Shown: piece by piece, positions 7,792 through 20,773 of the stretch
How the letters are laid out: the number at the start of each line of letters is the position of its first letter
Position numbering within the stretch: position 1 is the stretch's first letter
Virus record (IMG/VR): IMGVR_UViG_3300042556_001734
Location: 1-22,790 of that record
DNA length: 22,790 nt
From: a virus
Direction: 5' to 3' (one strand)
Notes under the pieces: generated by a model
Databases searched by the model: none
What the model was told of the DNA's origin: nothing
Seen by the model: the letters and a program-made list of their open reading frames with translations, nothing else
Translations under genes and position numbers: made by a program

Positions 7792-8439
7792 GTGGACGCA
7801 CCCGAAACCACGCGAGTTGAGATTGTCCAGAATCTGGACGCGGGCCGAAGCGAGCAACGAGCCGAGCAGAGAATCGGGCCGCACCCCAACTCGCTCGCCA
7901 ACCTGAAGCGCTTCCCCCCTGGCCAGTCAGGCAATCCAGCCGGCCGCCCCAAAGGCTCCAGCCCGCGCCAAGCTGCGATGCGCCTACTCGCGGAGCACGC
8001 GGGCTCGGACGGCGAGGGCGCGATGGCTACGCGCTTGGGACGCGGCTACGTCGAAGCGGTGCGCACCTTAACCGAGCGCATGGCTGACCCGAACGCGTCC
8101 CCATCGGCGCTGGCGAGCTACGGGAAGGCGCTCGAATCACTGACCCGCGCCCTGGCCGAGCTTGACCCCGCGCCGAAGGTGACCGAGCGGCGCGAGACTA
8201 GCCAGCGCGTCGTCCTGTCCCTCTCTGGCAAGCTCCCCGATGCGCCCGCGCAGCTTCCGATAATACCTGTTGTGTTGCACTCGACAGAGCAGATGGGAAG
8301 ATGCGAGGAAGATGCCGCCCCGCGCACAGTCGAGGCAGAGCGAGCGGGCGGGGGGACGTCGGAGACCGGCTCCGGGTCCCATCCTGACGCACCGCTTCCG
8401 TTGCGGAGTACCCCGCCCCCGTCCCCGCCCACACCATAG
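7792..8439 (+). CDS. DUF5681-type protein, probable terminase small subunit (215 aa)
   Basis: Residues 41-55, 'FPPGQSGNPAGRPKG', match the highly recognisable DUF5681 motif, found near the N-terminus of phage proteins encoded close to terminase genes. The following helices ('RQAAMRLLAEHAG', 'YVEAVRTLTERMADP', 'ALASYGKALESLTRALAEL') suit a DNA-binding, oligomer-forming small subunit that recognises the packaging site. The last 60 residues are Pro/Gly/Ser-rich and probably disordered. The GTG start at 7792 has GAGGGTGAAGGC before it; an ATG at 7741 is in frame but adds a low-complexity Gly/Arg segment without a good site. The large subunit lies 5.2 kb downstream, which is unusually far. The motif is certain; the terminase role is inferred. 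Confidence 0.72.
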   Translation: MDAPETTRVEIVQNLDAGRSEQRAEQRIGPHPNSLANLKRFPPGQSGNPAGRPKGSSPRQAAMRLLAEHAGSDGEGAMATRLGRGYVEAVRTLTERMADPNASPSALASYGKALESLTRALAELDPAPKVTERRETSQRVVLSLSGKLPDAPAQLPIIPVVLHSTEQMGRCEEDAAPRTVEAERAGGGTSETGSGSHPDAPLPLRSTPPPSPPTP

Positions 8440-8462
8440 GGGGGGGCCTCGACGCGAGCGCG

Positions 8463-8473
8463 ATGGGTCCCAT
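8463..8473. repeat. Palindrome ATGGGTCCCAT, copy 1
   Basis: This is a perfect 5-base inverted repeat around a central T. A related partial site, GGGTCCCAT, occurs at 8374-8382 inside the upstream gene. Confidence 0.7.
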
Positions 8474-8512
8474 GCGTGACGGCCCCGGCATGGGGTGGCA
8501 CATAATCCCAGC

Positions 8513-8527
8513 AGATGGGTCCCATCT
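8513..8527. repeat. Palindrome AGATGGGTCCCATCT, copy 2
   Basis: The same 11-base core as at 8463 is extended to a 15-base palindrome. The two centres (8468 and 8520) are 52 bases apart, close to five helical turns. Confidence 0.72.
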
Positions 8528-8561
8528 TGCACCGGCCTGCGTGCTTGCGTAGAAACTAGCC

Positions 8562-8930
8562 ATGCCGTTCACCGTGACGACGATCAACTGGCTGGACGAG
8601 GACGACAGCGCGCCGGTGTTGCAGGGTTCGGATTTCATCGACGTGGTGACGTTCTCGGGTTGGGCTGGGTCGTGGTCTGGTTTTTTGGTGCGCGGTCAGT
8701 TGCGGGAGGACTTTGGGACGGCGTTGCTGGCTGAGATCAAATGCACGATCTTGGACGTGGACGCGCGGACGGTTCGGTTCTTTATCCCGGCTGCGGTGAC
8801 GGCTGAGATTGACGTTGACTGTGGGCGTTGGGATGCGGAGCTGTACCGTTTTGACGAGTCTGGTGCGGAGACATCGGTGATGCGATTTGTGCAGGGCCGT
8901 TGGGAGCTTTCGAGGGAAGTGACGCGATGA
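8562..8930 (+). CDS. Small virion or tail-associated protein, BppU N-domain-like pattern (122 aa)
   Basis: The protein is mostly beta structure: 'SGFLVRGQLREDFG' with 'ILDVDARTVRFFIPAAVTAEID', then 'RWDAELYRFDESG' and 'RFVQGRWELSREVTR'. An ending of the form 'WD-x-E-L ... V-x-G-x(5)S-x-EVTR' recurs in small phage tail or baseplate proteins of the type that also form the N-terminal domain of BppU-like receptor-binding subunits; this is a pattern match, not a search result. Codon choice differs by eye from its neighbours, with many TTG, GGT, TTT and GCT codons where they prefer C-ending ones, so it may have a different history. Its stop overlaps the next start (ATGA). The distant counterpart at 13221 flanks the other side of the same module. 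Confidence 0.55.
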   Translation: MPFTVTTINWLDEDDSAPVLQGSDFIDVVTFSGWAGSWSGFLVRGQLREDFGTALLAEIKCTILDVDARTVRFFIPAAVTAEIDVDCGRWDAELYRFDESGAETSVMRFVQGRWELSREVTR

Positions 8931-10909
8931 ATGCTTTCTACGGTGGCGCGAGTCGAGGCGAGCAGGACGCGCTTTTGGCGTCGGCTGACCGGGTGAACAT
9001 GAGCGTCCCGGACGTGAACGACCCCCGCCCGGTGGTGCTGGCGTCGGGCACGGCGAACGTGGTGTTCTTCCAGGGCAACACGCGGCTCGCGCCGTTCAAC
9101 GGGACTGCCGAGACGGTCACGCGCGGGAGCACGACTTACGCGGGCAGCGGTGGGCCGGTGGGCCTGCGGCTGGGCAACACGAACGCCGACGACATTGGGC
9201 CTGCGTACCAGGGGTTCATTACGGCGTACAACCTCAGCGGCTCGCACACGGGAAATCGGCAGATGCGCGTCTCGCTGCGCGGCTCTGGAGGCAGCGGCAC
9301 GGCTGCGCAGATCAACGCCACTCGTCAAAGCATCGTGCTCGCCGAGGACGTGGAGTACCGAGTCATTGTGTGGCCGCACACGCAGGCAATTGCGTCGGGC
9401 GGGAAGGCGTTGCCTGCGCCTGAGGACTTGGCTGGGTGCTTCATCTATCGCGTGAACGCGACGGACGCTGCGCACGCGACGATCAACTACTACGGCGGTC
9501 GCAACGCGGCTGGCACGGCAAACGACGTGGCCAACGAGTCGCCGTTCATTCCGCTCGACCTCGTCTCGTCGCCGACGCTCGCGGGGTACTCGACGTTCGT
9601 TGAGACTCCGGCCGCTGGCGACCTCGTGTTCATCGTGGACTACGAGCTTCAGGACCTTGACGGTGATGGCACGCCCGAGACGGACGTGTACATGCTGGAG
9701 GACCAGCGCGGCGACGCGCACGAGTTAACCTACACGGGCACGCGCGGGGCGGCTGGGTCACGGGGGATTTGGTATCCGTACGTGAGCCTCCAGAGCGCGG
9801 GCGGGCTGTGTAACGCGACGCAGTTGGTGTCGATCGACGCGCCGTTCCCGAGTGCTCGCGGCAACACGGAGCAGAACTGGTACTTGACGCCATCGGTCAC
9901 GATTCCGCCGGGGACGTGGACCAACGGGCAGACGGTGACGTTCCGCACGACGGGTAACGTGTCGTGGGGTAGTGCGACGCTCGGGATCGAGTTGCTCATG
10001 TTCTTCTCAAACGCGGAGAAGAATGGCTGGGATCCGTGGGCGCACGAGTCGGCGGGCTGGAACGGCTCGGTCGCGCACTGGTTTGAGAAGGGTCCGTACC
10101 AAGCGTTCACGGGCGGCGTGTGGGACGAGGCGAGCAAGACTCTCACGGTCGCGGGCAGTGGCATCGGCGACTTGGGCGCGGCGTGCCTGTGGGTGACGGG
10201 CGGCACGGGCGCTGACATTGAGCCTGTGCTGATCGACAACGACCCCAGCACGGGTAGCAGCGGCGACGACCTGATCGTGCTCACGTCGATCGGTGCGAGC
10301 GCGGACACGGAGACCGACATCACGGGATTCGTGGGCGGGATCGCCTCCACCGTGGGGTCTGAGACGTGGGTGAGCGGCAAGCTCAACAACAACGGCGCGG
10401 TCGGTCCCGTGCTTATCCTGCAATCGGATGCGGTTGCAAGCGCGGGCGCGGTGAACTTCTCGATCGAGGTGCGCATCACGCACATCTCGCAGCCTCTCAG
10501 CGACGGCGCGACGGGCACACATGCGTTCAACGTCGAGGCCGAGTTCCGCATCGGCGGCGGCGGTGCGACGCACACTGGCACGGCTGGCTCGGCGTCCGTG
10601 TCGCGCACGTTCCGCTCGTGCTCACACAGCGTTGCGCGCGACATCGTGAACCTGTTCACGGAGCACTTGGGCATCACGGTGCTGATGCGCTCGGTTGAGG
10701 GCACGTCGGGCACGGGCGACATCAACATCCCCGGCGTCCACGGCTGGTATCCGCGCTCGCCCTACAACCCGAAGAACGGGATGGGCTGGCCGCTGCGCTT
10801 CAACTCGTCCAACGTGTACCAGACGGTGGCGACGGCGAGCACGGAGAATGCCGTGCTGCTTCGCCCGCGCGAGTGGGAGTTCATCTACAACGGGTCGCAG
10901 AGCAAGTAA
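8927..10909 (+). CDS. Putative virion adsorption or fibre protein (660 aa)
   Basis: I do not recognise a named family. The protein is rich in Gly, Thr, Ser, Asn and short beta strands, has no membrane span or signal peptide, and is long, as expected of a fibre or tail appendage. A calcium-binding-type loop is visible at D243-D253 ('DLDGDGTPETD', ligands D243, D245, D247 and E251 or D253). Segments such as 'GTWTNGQTVTFRTTGNVSWGSATLGIELLMFFSNAEKNGW' in part suggest jelly-roll sheets. The ATG at 8927 has GAGGGAAG upstream and overlaps the previous stop (ATGA). The stop overlaps the hydrolase start as TAATG, so the two proteins are likely made together and may work on the same surface structure. 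The role is inferred from position and composition. Confidence 0.55.
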   Translation: MNAFYGGASRGEQDALLASADRVNMSVPDVNDPRPVVLASGTANVVFFQGNTRLAPFNGTAETVTRGSTTYAGSGGPVGLRLGNTNADDIGPAYQGFITAYNLSGSHTGNRQMRVSLRGSGGSGTAAQINATRQSIVLAEDVEYRVIVWPHTQAIASGGKALPAPEDLAGCFIYRVNATDAAHATINYYGGRNAAGTANDVANESPFIPLDLVSSPTLAGYSTFVETPAAGDLVFIVDYELQDLDGDGTPETDVYMLEDQRGDAHELTYTGTRGAAGSRGIWYPYVSLQSAGGLCNATQLVSIDAPFPSARGNTEQNWYLTPSVTIPPGTWTNGQTVTFRTTGNVSWGSATLGIELLMFFSNAEKNGWDPWAHESAGWNGSVAHWFEKGPYQAFTGGVWDEASKTLTVAGSGIGDLGAACLWVTGGTGADIEPVLIDNDPSTGSSGDDLIVLTSIGASADTETDITGFVGGIASTVGSETWVSGKLNNNGAVGPVLILQSDAVASAGAVNFSIEVRITHISQPLSDGATGTHAFNVEAEFRIGGGGATHTGTAGSASVSRTFRSCSHSVARDIVNLFTEHLGITVLMRSVEGTSGTGDINIPGVHGWYPRSPYNPKNGMGWPLRFNSSNVYQTVATASTENAVLLRPREWEFIYNGSQSK

Positions 10910-12123
10910 TGGTCTACACCGGCCTCAACACGAACTTCACCTTCACGCGCGCAACGAGCGACGCGCCCGGCGCAATCACGGCGACCGGTCCGAACCGGCG
11001 CGTGTTCTGGTCTGGCGGCATGGCTGGCCAGTGCTCGATCGCGTGCTGGCGTCCGAGCGCGAGCTTCACAAACGCGGGATGGGTGCTGCACGTGCGCGGC
11101 GGGTTGGGCTACAACCCCGGCGAGCGCGGCGCGTACGACGCGAGCGCGTTCAATGCGTTCTTGGAACACTTCATCTCGCGCGGGTACGTCGTGTTCTCGA
11201 TCGACTACCCCGGCAACGCGAGCAACCTCTCGGGCACCGCGCCCATGAACGACCTGCGCCCACTGGCCATGTGGCCGGATGCGGTGTTCTGGGTAGGTCG
11301 CTGCATCCAAGAGATCAAGGACAACGCGGACTCGACGACCACGCTGGGCGCGACGTTGCTCGGCGCGGGCAACTCGATCGACCCTCGGTTTGGCGTGTAC
11401 CTGGGCAACTCGTGGGGCGGCACGATTGGTCTCATGCTTGCGTGTATGCCTGACTCGCTCATGGCTCGCTTTGCCTCGCCGTACATCGGGCGCGCAGGCA
11501 ACGTTCCGCGCAGCTCGCACCGCATGAAGGTGGTGGCGACGAACGAGGCGCAAATCGACCTCACGCAGTTCGACATTGAGCCGAGCACGCCATCGCAGAA
11601 GCCCGACTACCTGCTCGGCGAGATCTACATGAGCGACCGCGCGCAGTGGTTGCATCGCACAGACTCGCGCGACAAGTGGAGCACGACGCCGATCTCCGAG
11701 AAGAAGATGAGCCCGTGGTGGATGCTCAAGCGCAACTACCCCGAGACGGCCGACGTGCTGTTCATGGGGCGCTGGCCCACGGGGCTCGTGACGGGCGGAA
11801 CGCCTGCCGCGCCAATCCCCGAGGAGGCGAACATCACGCCCGATGACTTTGTGCCGGGGCGCTTGCCGACCGCGCAGATGCGCACGGATGGCAAGGCGTG
11901 GCGCGATCCACACAACCCGTTCCAAGCGCGTGCGTGGCGTGATGCGCTGCTCTCGTACGGGTCAAGTTCGAGCTCACTGATCCGCAAGAGCGAAGTGCGC
12001 TGGGGCGTCAACTCAAGCTCTGGAGCGTTTGCCAACGCTGGAGGCGCTCGCCCTGGGAACGCGGCCTGGGCCGAGCAGGTTTTCAACGCCGCAGTGACGC
12101 ACGCGGGCTACCCGGAGGCATGA
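10909..12123 (+). CDS. Alpha/beta hydrolase, putative virion esterase (404 aa)
   Basis: The fold is supported by 'FISRGYVVFSIDYPG', the usual strand and oxyanion-hole region of alpha/beta hydrolases, followed by the nucleophile elbow 'GNSWGG' with S168 in a G-x-S-x-G setting. H335 in 'RDPHNPFQARAW' is a good candidate for the catalytic histidine; the acid is not certain. Such enzymes cleave ester bonds, and phages use them to deacetylate capsule or lipopolysaccharide, or, as LysB, to cleave mycolate esters. The LysB elbow is usually written GYSQG, which differs from this one. Its place among putative fibre genes suggests a tail-mounted enzyme rather than a lysis enzyme. No signal peptide is seen. 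The start is the ATG in TAATG with the upstream gene. Confidence 0.75.
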   Translation: MVYTGLNTNFTFTRATSDAPGAITATGPNRRVFWSGGMAGQCSIACWRPSASFTNAGWVLHVRGGLGYNPGERGAYDASAFNAFLEHFISRGYVVFSIDYPGNASNLSGTAPMNDLRPLAMWPDAVFWVGRCIQEIKDNADSTTTLGATLLGAGNSIDPRFGVYLGNSWGGTIGLMLACMPDSLMARFASPYIGRAGNVPRSSHRMKVVATNEAQIDLTQFDIEPSTPSQKPDYLLGEIYMSDRAQWLHRTDSRDKWSTTPISEKKMSPWWMLKRNYPETADVLFMGRWPTGLVTGGTPAAPIPEEANITPDDFVPGRLPTAQMRTDGKAWRDPHNPFQARAWRDALLSYGSSSSSLIRKSEVRWGVNSSSGAFANAGGARPGNAAWAEQVFNAAVTHAGYPEA

Positions 12124-12124
12124 G

Positions 12125-12850
12125 ATGAGCGGACTTGGCAACGTTGGGGCGGACTACTTCGACATCCTGCTCAACAACAACGTCGGCTCGGGCGTGACGA
12201 TTGCGCAGGCGTTGCAGATCACGACGCCGCAGCCGCCCTCGTCGGTGCCGCCGCTCTACATCTCGTTGCACACGGGTGACCCGGGGAACTCGGGCAGTCT
12301 TGAGACGAGCGTGGCGGGCTACCAGCGCGCGTCGTACCAGCGGACGCTATTTACGGTGGGAGGTTCCAACTTCTTCCCGTGGACGAAGACGCAGGGAAGC
12401 TCGCTGGCTCCTACGACGTGGACCAACTACAGCTCGATCTCGTTTGCGACGGTGAGCGGCAGCGACACGATTACGCACTGGGGCATCTGGACTGCGCTGA
12501 CCGGTGGAGGCTTCATCCTCGGCGGTCCGCTGCGCGCGTCGGGTGCGTCGGTGAAGCTGGCGTATGCGACGGCTGTGGGCACGATCCACTCGGTCGGGCA
12601 CGGTCTGACGGCTGGCAACACGATCCGCATCTGGAACGCCTACGACAACTTCAACGGCGGCACAGCTCCGCTGACGACGCCGGGCGTGACGCGCGTGGTG
12701 GATACGGGTCCGAACACGGACGACTTCGACATCACTGTGAACCTGGACGCTGTCGGCCCGGTCGGCTACGTCCTCTCCGGCTCGCTGAGCTTGGTGTCGG
12801 GTAGCGTGCCCTCGATCGCCGCTGGCGGGATTGTGATCTCGGTCACATGA
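12125..12850 (+). CDS. Phage tail-type structural protein with FCCH-like insert (241 aa)
   Basis: Residues 44-72 ('LYISLHTGDPGNSGSLE' and 'GYQRASYQR') and 107-140 ('FATVSG', 'THWGIWTALTGGGFILGGPL') follow a pattern common in phage tail or fibre-associated proteins, usually given as x-L-H-T-A-D-P-G followed by G-Y-x-R and T-H-x-G-I-W. Between the last two strands lies an insert at about 145-212, 'TIHSVGHGLTAGNTIRIW' followed by 'DDFDITVNL', resembling the FCCH-like beta domain of ubiquitin-activating E1 that recurs in phage virion proteins. The body then resumes with 'GSLSLVSG'. It starts one base after the hydrolase stop. A virion role is likely; a ubiquitin role is not implied. Confidence 0.68.
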   Translation: MSGLGNVGADYFDILLNNNVGSGVTIAQALQITTPQPPSSVPPLYISLHTGDPGNSGSLETSVAGYQRASYQRTLFTVGGSNFFPWTKTQGSSLAPTTWTNYSSISFATVSGSDTITHWGIWTALTGGGFILGGPLRASGASVKLAYATAVGTIHSVGHGLTAGNTIRIWNAYDNFNGGTAPLTTPGVTRVVDTGPNTDDFDITVNLDAVGPVGYVLSGSLSLVSGSVPSIAAGGIVISVT

Positions 12851-19514: not shown

Positions 19515-20060
19515 ATGATCACTTCTCCCATCGGCGGGCCGGGCATCGGCTACTTCCCGCCGAACATCGACGTTGTGGTGTACAACCGCAGCACTGCTAC
19601 GGCTCCTGGGGTCGCGTTCGCCATCGGCGACGTTGTGCAGCTCGACCTCACGGATGTTGGCCAAACCGCTGGCGCTTCGACCACCGGGGCCACGACTGTC
19701 AACACGCCCTACGGCGCGGAAGGTGCGACGGCGTTCTCGAACGCTGTCGAGCCGACCGCCGCTGGCATCAAGGCTGGCATCTTGGGTGTGTGCTTGGAGC
19801 CGATCGCGGTTGGCTCCAAGGGGCGCATTCGTTTGCAGGGGATCGTTGACAGCGTGTTCGTCATCGCGGCATCCGGCAGCGTCGCTCCTGGCGCTCCGTT
19901 GGTGGCGACGACTGCAAAGAACCTCGATCTCGTGCTCGCTGTGAACGAGCGCATCATCGGGATCGCGCTGTCTTCGACTGCGACCCCGACGACCCGTACC
20001 CTGGGCGGCGCGGTGCTGTTCAACGGCATCACCGGCTTCGGCATGGAAGGCGGCAGCTAA
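19515..20060 (+). CDS. Head decoration or head-surface protein (181 aa)
   Basis: Directly downstream of the capsid gene, after AAGGAGT at a good spacing, lies a beta-rich, Ala/Gly/Thr/Val-rich protein. The pattern 'GVAFAIGDVVQLDLTD', then 'GILGVCLEPIAVGSKGRIRLQGIVDSVFV' and 'GAPLVATTAKNLDLVLAVNERIIGIALS' resembles decoration or stabilising proteins of the DUF2190-like or lambda D-like kind, in which repeated 'G-x-V-x-x-G-x-x-G-x-V' beta units form the fold. Such proteins bind the capsid after expansion. One cysteine is present and there is no membrane span. The assignment depends on position and pattern. Confidence 0.65.
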   Translation: MITSPIGGPGIGYFPPNIDVVVYNRSTATAPGVAFAIGDVVQLDLTDVGQTAGASTTGATTVNTPYGAEGATAFSNAVEPTAAGIKAGILGVCLEPIAVGSKGRIRLQGIVDSVFVIAASGSVAPGAPLVATTAKNLDLVLAVNERIIGIALSSTATPTTRTLGGAVLFNGITGFGMEGGS

Positions 20061-20062
20061 TC

Positions 20063-20773
20063 ATGACGCTCACCGTTCAACGCATCGGGCAGTTCTTGCG
20101 CCGCCGCTTGGACGGTGAGCCGTCGATGGACACGCTGTCGCTCTGCAATCTCGCGGGGCGACAGCTTTTCACCATGCACACGTGGGAGTGGGCCGTCGCG
20201 CCCAAGACCACGATCACGATCAACTCCGGCAAGAGCGAGGTCGAATTGCCGAAGGACTTTGGCCGCATGGTCAAGGTCGAGACCTCTGGGTCGCTGCTCA
20301 ACGCGCTGGTGCTGACGACGCCGTCGCATCTGCTTGAGTTGGAGACCTCGATCATCAGCATGAACAACGTCGGCTACTGGGCCGCCGTGGTGTGGAAGAA
20401 GCCGACCGATGGATGCCCGATGCGGCCCGTGCTGCGCGTGTACCCGCAGATCGGCACGTCGGACTCGCTCAACCTGTACTACTACTCGGCGTGGGTTGAG
20501 ATCACGGACGAGAACGAGACCATCAGCGTCCCGCCGTTCATTGAGCCCTTGCTGCTGGAACTGTGCTTCGCGTTCGCGCAGGGCTACGACGAGCACGACA
20601 TCGCGGACCTTAACGACCGCTTGGCTCGCGTGCAGCAGTCGCCGGTGTTCCAGACGGCGGTGATGCAGGACGCCTCGGTGCAGGACGAGCTTGGAGAGAT
20701 CCGAGGCGGGGTTACGGACAGCAATCGGATGTGGCAATCGGCTACGATCATCGGCGGCCCGTATCAGGTCTAG
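20063..20773 (+). CDS. Head-tail adaptor/connector protein (236 aa)
   Basis: The gene follows the decoration protein and precedes a tail protein, the normal place for the ring protein that seals the portal and attaches the tail. The sequence has a helical start ('VQRIGQFLRRRLDGEPSMDTLSLCNLAGRQLFTMHTWEW' in part) and a beta-rich middle ('TTITINSGKSEVELPKDFGRMVKVETSG'). The helical end 'PPFIEPLLLELCFAFAQGYDEHDIADLNDRLARVQQS' closely resembles adaptor proteins of podovirus-type phages, in which an 'AR-A-x-G' helix precedes a short loop and another helix. It begins two bases after the previous stop, with AAGGCGG upstream. The name is inferred from position and pattern. Confidence 0.65.
   Translation: MTLTVQRIGQFLRRRLDGEPSMDTLSLCNLAGRQLFTMHTWEWAVAPKTTITINSGKSEVELPKDFGRMVKVETSGSLLNALVLTTPSHLLELETSIISMNNVGYWAAVVWKKPTDGCPMRPVLRVYPQIGTSDSLNLYYYSAWVEITDENETISVPPFIEPLLLELCFAFAQGYDEHDIADLNDRLARVQQSPVFQTAVMQDASVQDELGEIRGGVTDSNRMWQSATIIGGPYQV

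Follow-up and report, generated by a model that had tools for sequence, protein, structure and literature searches.

A predicted alpha/beta hydrolase coupled to a putative phage fibre is exchanged with it between unrelated backbones

Introduction

Esterase activity on O-antigen modifications has been described for the tailspikes of the podophages G7C, Moo19 and B2, where, in the accessible part of the source, the activity resides in the tailspike protein or complex (PMC11654681). The accessible text of a second source describes a tail-linked SGNH hydrolase domain in Gp44 of phage phi11 and refers to the prediction of lipases associated with the virions of Cellulophaga and Pseudomonas phages (Pires et al. 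2016, via PMC5380687). As far as the accessible portions of both papers go, the alpha/beta hydrolase is among the depolymerase folds screened in PMC11326577, and an esterase role of LysB is cited in PMC5513430.

Here we analysed a 22,790-nucleotide stretch of viral DNA (positions 1 to 22,790 of IMG/VR record IMGVR_UViG_3300042556_001734; hereafter the window), in which an earlier note had pointed out a possible alpha/beta hydrolase encoded next to a putative fibre. Unlike the esterase activity of G7C, Moo19 and B2, for which the accessible part of PMC11654681 names no fold, the predicted enzyme is an independent polypeptide; its fold is that of the alpha/beta hydrolases. It also differs from the SGNH domain of Gp44, which is of another fold class, is fused to a peptidase and comes from a phage of Gram-positive bacteria (accessible text of PMC5380687). 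By their description, the Cellulophaga and Pseudomonas lipases are likewise predicted virion-linked ester hydrolases, but the hydrolase of the window has a gene of its own, which is coupled to the fibre gene and exchanged with it (same source, accessible text). What is new at this locus is the pairing of enzyme and fibre and their exchange, not the class of enzyme.

Gene organization and selection

The features of the locus are listed in Table 1. The ATG of the hydrolase gene overlaps the TAA (10907-10909) of the preceding 660-residue ORF to form TAATG, and an overlapping stop and start precedes the hydrolase in all four alleles that we compared, namely those of the window and of contigs L003, L006 and L015. 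The reading frame is open throughout, so the complete, TAATG-coupled gene proposed previously was indeed found. Between the window and L003 alleles, dN/dS was 0.19 at a dS of 0.40, which argues that the ORF is not a chance one; judged from this comparison, the hydrolase is under purifying selection. The corresponding dN/dS of the fibre gene was 0.18. Against the L015 allele, dN/dS was about 1, an uninformative value as sites are saturated. The hydrolase carries no hydrophobic export segment, the highest mean hydropathy over 19 residues being 1.07, and a promoter and terminator scan of positions 8400-12300 gave no hits.

Table 1. Coordinates of the features at the hydrolase locus, in positions of the window
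Feature	Position	Strand	Basis or remark
Conserved leader to first ATG, cassette 5' junction	8517..8567	+	Window/L015 match, diverging beyond the 8562-gene start codon
Palindrome ATGGGTCCCAT, exact copies at 8463-8473 and 8515-8525 within the pre-cassette leader	8463..8525	+
122-aa protein, first cassette gene (8562 gene)	8562..8930	+	phrog_1084 (unknown function), E 2.5e-8
660-aa putative fibre, second cassette gene	8927..10909	+	Size, position, exchange
Predicted alpha/beta hydrolase gene, third in cassette	10909..12123	+	404 aa, complete, uninterrupted
G64-G65, oxyanion-type motif	11098..11103	+	Allele alignment, Aes profile comparison
S168, predicted nucleophile in GNSWGG	11410..11412	+	Invariant in 4/4 alleles; aligns with the Aes GDSAG serine
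D333-P334-H335, candidate acid and/or histidine	11905..11913	+	Invariant in 4 alleles
Cassette 3' junction, hydrolase stop (12121-12123) to gp80-like ATG (12125)	12124..12125	+	L003/L006/L015 comparisons
gp80-like virion protein, backbone, outside the cassette	12125..12850	+	PF23140, E 4.5e-14; 8jou_a, E 1.3e-6

Fold assignment

The four aligned hydrolase alleles were used as a query profile and compared by hhalign with a profile of nine cellular acetyl-esterase-like sequences, comprising Escherichia coli Aes and eight plasmid-borne homologues picked among 40 matches listed of 626 records. The comparison aligned window residues 36-180 at a probability of 96.4% (E 1e-9) and set S168 opposite the nucleophile serine of Aes, while 20 column shuffles gave at most 0.4%. 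On this difference from the shuffles, we assign the N-terminal half of the protein to the alpha/beta hydrolases. It shares with the HSL/Aes-type and BD-FAE esterases a GG oxyanion-type motif, a DY after the next strand and the G-x-S-x-G elbow, all in the same order.

In Pfam, the window protein gave weak matches to BD-FAE (E 0.013, 15.4 bits) and to Abhydrolase_1 (E 0.048, residues 163-189 around S168). The BD-FAE scores of the other alleles were 13.2 bits for L003, 21.1 bits for L006 (E 2.4e-4) and 25.7 bits for L015 (E 9.7e-6), the last being the best of the four, none of which reaches the curated cut-off of this family (PF20434, 26.8 bits). The L015 allele also matched phrog_3341, annotated as 'esterase' (E 1.4e-4), and the window protein did not. 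Neither an SGNH/GDSL family nor a LysB family was reported for the window protein at E<=1 or for the other alleles at E<=10, and three of the alleles had no match in NCBIfam. The earlier assignment to classical alpha/beta hydrolases, as opposed to SGNH enzymes, is thus borne out by the profile comparison and by the unmatched GDSL/SGNH families.

The resemblance to HSL/Aes-type and BD-FAE esterases does not extend to residues 181-404, which have no detectable similarity to them. When residues 181-404, 276-404 and 300-404 were compared with the C-terminal region of the Aes sequences, each gave a probability of 0.0%, with no gain over 30 shuffles per cut, and our searches found no match for this C-terminal half.

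Structure prediction was of little help. A single-sequence model was useless (pLDDT 31.8) and a four-row AlphaFold model was poor (pLDDT 38.2, pTM 0.49), so the ordered Ser-His-acid triad, for which the earlier note had suggested structure prediction as a check, was not confirmed. The latter low-confidence model places a strand at 162-167, S168 and a helix at 169-179, an elbow-like order. Foldseek with the hydrolase model gave a best E of 0.66 against the PDB and of 0.46 against viral models, where the top rows were unrelated proteins. VIA-align of the poor model found esterases and lipases as the nearest structures at Z of at most 4.9, which is in the uninformative range. Judged by title, all 50 matches listed were alpha/beta-hydrolase-fold entries. 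Weak as these model comparisons are, they agree with a hydrolase fold.

Searches for homologues were negative in the plasmid collection, and pattern searches of species genomes returned 47 and 61 stretches, none of which was confirmed. Searching the PDB by sequence gave two chance rows each for the window protein and for its 7-row profile, and nothing for the L015 allele; the four-allele profile gave two weak rows, both annotated 'esterase' (E 0.24 and 0.53). A 'new receptor-processing enzyme', as first suggested, is too strong a description, as virion lipases have already been predicted (accessible text of PMC5380687), yet no homologue of the hydrolase was found in 50,697 phage records. Nor was there a phage match for the putative fibre, the portal or the 8562 gene.

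Candidate active site

The nucleophile elbow reads GNSWGG, and GDSWGC in L015, with the serine invariant in all four alleles; this residue, already singled out in the earlier note, would serve as the nucleophile. The oxyanion-type motif is more variable. An H-G-G ahead of the nucleophile is a signature of the HSL/Aes family, and among our alleles HGG occurs in that of L015 only (HGG-LG), the histidine being replaced by R or K in the other three (RGG-LG in the window and L003, KGG-LG in L006). Invariant across all four are, among others, S168, D217, D243, E279, D313, D333, H204 and H335.

Because residues 181-404 scored 0.0% against the Aes set and no better than shuffles, we name neither the catalytic acid nor the catalytic histidine. 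After the elbow, H204 and H335 are the only histidines conserved in the four alleles, and no histidine past residue 335 is common to them. The stretch D333-P-H335-x-P-F-Q lies ahead of a helix and, as judged by eye, looks like the usual acid loop. H335 is a good candidate for the base on sequence grounds: its invariance, within D-P-H, upholds the choice made in the earlier note, while the triad into which it was placed is unconfirmed, the C-terminal half matching nothing. The last core strand of the low-confidence model lies at 363-365 with no conserved histidine downstream, a hint that the catalytic histidine may be displaced. We consider it doubtful, though worth stating, that the protein is a receptor esterase matched to its fibre but separate from it, in which the catalytic histidine has moved and the active site is rearranged, and which is encoded by the last gene of a three-gene host-recognition cassette exchanged between unrelated phages.

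The same features could be explained if the protein were a hydrolase of reduced catalytic capacity acting as a fibre assembly factor, an adaptor or a glycan-binding module, with the fold kept and catalysis lost or secondary. Such a dedicated partner would fit the overlapping stop and start and the strict matching of fibre alleles described below; it would also fit the replaced oxyanion-motif histidine, the lack of a conserved histidine after 335 and a C-terminal half, due to hold the acid and the histidine, that matches no known hydrolase. However, S168, G166, G170, D333 and H335 are invariant down to 38% identity, a pattern more in line with a retained active site than with a scaffold, and we regard loss of catalysis as a minority explanation that still deserves serious weight.

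Neighbouring genes and phage type

The ATG of the putative fibre gene overlaps the stop of the 8562 gene (ATGA). From its size, its position and its exchange, we infer that the 660-residue neighbour is a fibre; of the earlier proposal, the size and the coupling stand, and a significant match in Pfam or PHROG was not found. The product of the 8562 gene matched phrog_1084 in all three alleles tested and had a weak match, below cut-off, to an LtfC-like beta-sandwich (E 0.1); it may be a fibre anchor or a collar protein. The first gene beyond the cassette encodes a homologue of virion proteins, belonging to the podophage GP4 fiber I family (PF23140) and similar to 8jou_a, a solved virion-associated phage protein. 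This gp80-like homologue recalls podophage GP4, but here its gene is part of the backbone and not of the cassette.

The window also encodes a large terminase, an SU10-type portal (below cut-off) and an SU10-type adaptor (E 2.9e-9), from which we take it to come from a tailed phage, and probably from a podophage. No terminase of an isolated phage is more than 33% identical to that of the window, the best match being Thermobifida phage P1312. A relative of 46,187 bases has an exact 127-base end repeat (L037 1-127 and the end of L039) and therefore probably represents a complete genome of about 46.06 kb. It carries a phosphoadenosine phosphosulfate reductase-like gene (L037 12877-13647, minus strand; phrog_424, E 5.6e-34). 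It also carries a cluster of small genes (L037 8652-9709) that look holin/spanin-like by eye, one with a lipobox, which hints at a Gram-negative host.

These lysis-type genes bear on whether the hydrolase could be a LysB-like esterase, opening the envelope of the host when infection ends. Two points would suit such a role: LysB enzymes have the alpha/beta hydrolase fold, and no endolysin was recognized among the ten scanned proteins of the 46-kb relative. However, that relative has separate holin/spanin-like genes, judged by eye and including one with a lipobox, as would be apt for a host bounded by an outer membrane, and nothing would call for a lysis enzyme to swap with a fibre as a unit; we therefore regard this role as very unlikely.

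The exchange cassette

A terminase query identified eight contigs with the backbone of the window, L020 and L021 starting inside the terminase gene. The hydrolase is present in all six that reach the cassette position (L009 with the 3' end only). A second backbone, with terminase and portal 25% identical to those of the window, is represented by four contigs; L028 stops short of the cassette position, and the other three (L003, L004 and L005) all carry the hydrolase. Across the nine related contigs reaching the position, the hydrolase is always present and lies directly after the fibre, with an overlapping stop and start where the junction is covered. The phage has other apparent passengers, as the phosphoadenosine phosphosulfate reductase match illustrates, and the hydrolase could be imagined as one more metabolic gene unlinked to host recognition. 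Such constancy of presence and place speaks against this, and we consider a passenger the least probable of the alternatives.

On terminases at least 99% identical, we found three hydrolase alleles, two of which are 63% and 38% identical to that of the window, each paired with its own fibre allele (51% and 22% identical to the window's, respectively). L006 and L007 are 99.0-99.2% identical to the window in the terminase and 99.7-100% in the capsid, whereas BLAST identities fall to 44-48% for the 8562 gene, 46-47% for the fibre and 60% for the hydrolase (50%, 51% and 63% in codon alignments of L006). L015 has a terminase 99.8% identical to the window's, with 37% for the 8562 gene, 22% for the fibre and 38% for the hydrolase. 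Conversely, the fibre and hydrolase of L003 are 89% identical to those of the window despite the 25% identity of the terminases, and the 8562 gene of the second backbone is 66% identical (L005 lacking coverage). Divergent alleles on a conserved backbone and a like allele on an unrelated one are the pattern of a receptor-binding exchange module of phages.

The boundaries of this module can be read from the junctions. The match between L015 and the window halts at the 8562-gene ATG and restarts at the gp80-like ATG; that with L003 ends at about 12123, around the hydrolase stop; and that with L006 restarts at about 12085, inside the last hydrolase codons. Since identity breaks at the 8562-gene ATG and at the 3' end, the sequence comparison defines the unit exchanged as three genes, the 8562 gene, the fibre and, at its end, the hydrolase. 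The gp80-like gene is independent of the cassette allele, L006 and L007 sharing a cassette and differing by 9% there. Its alleles split into two groups that differ by about 9% and do not track the cassette alleles, which suggests ongoing recombination right beside the cassette.

The palindrome ATGGGTCCCAT has four strand-matches in the window against 0.1 expected. A degenerate copy lies near 8374, all copies being confined to the pre-cassette leader (8373-8525), and the corresponding leader of the 46-kb relative contains all three exact copies present there. The palindrome is possibly an operator, a promoter or a recombination site; RNA folding of the leader gave no signal (z -0.53). A second variable site lies past the capsid, where the window has a 181-aa protein (19574-20064) and L015 (13195-14504) has a 163-aa protein and a 252-aa ORF, glycosyltransferase-like by eye; gaps of comparable size occur there in L020 and L021.

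Exchange with the fibre supports the receptor-related role that had been proposed, and because it is seen on two unrelated backbones, it suggests that the hydrolase acts on the target of the fibre. A fibre chaperone, or an enzyme working in the infected cell, should also show co-exchange with the fibre. Such an enzyme would strip or alter the receptor, for superinfection block or release of progeny; it would need to match the fibre and would likewise travel with it. However, the hydrolase has no export segment, and its gene sits inside the structural operon, between the fibre gene and that of a virion-protein homologue, so we judge an infected-cell enzyme to be unlikely.

Discussion

Taken together, the earlier observation was confirmed and its interpretation supported in part. 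An esterase-type fold, the lack of an export segment and the position in a structural operon lead us to favour, with rather more confidence than doubt, a fibre-linked esterase that acts on a surface glycan of the host and whose gene forms one exchange cassette with those of the fibre and of the 122-residue protein. According to this model, an alpha/beta-hydrolase-fold ester hydrolase would be translationally coupled to a receptor-binding fibre, would most likely be located on or beside that fibre in the virion, and would take off an ester-linked group, such as an O-acetyl, from the polysaccharide that its own fibre binds.

In the accessible parts of the papers cited above, tail esterases are parts of spikes; here, the predicted enzyme is separate and always travels with the fibre. 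Fibre-matched enzymes of four alleles on two unrelated backbones provide natural pairs for separating the specificity of the enzyme from that of the fibre, and in uncultivated phages whose fibre matches nothing, the substrate of the enzyme would name the receptor.
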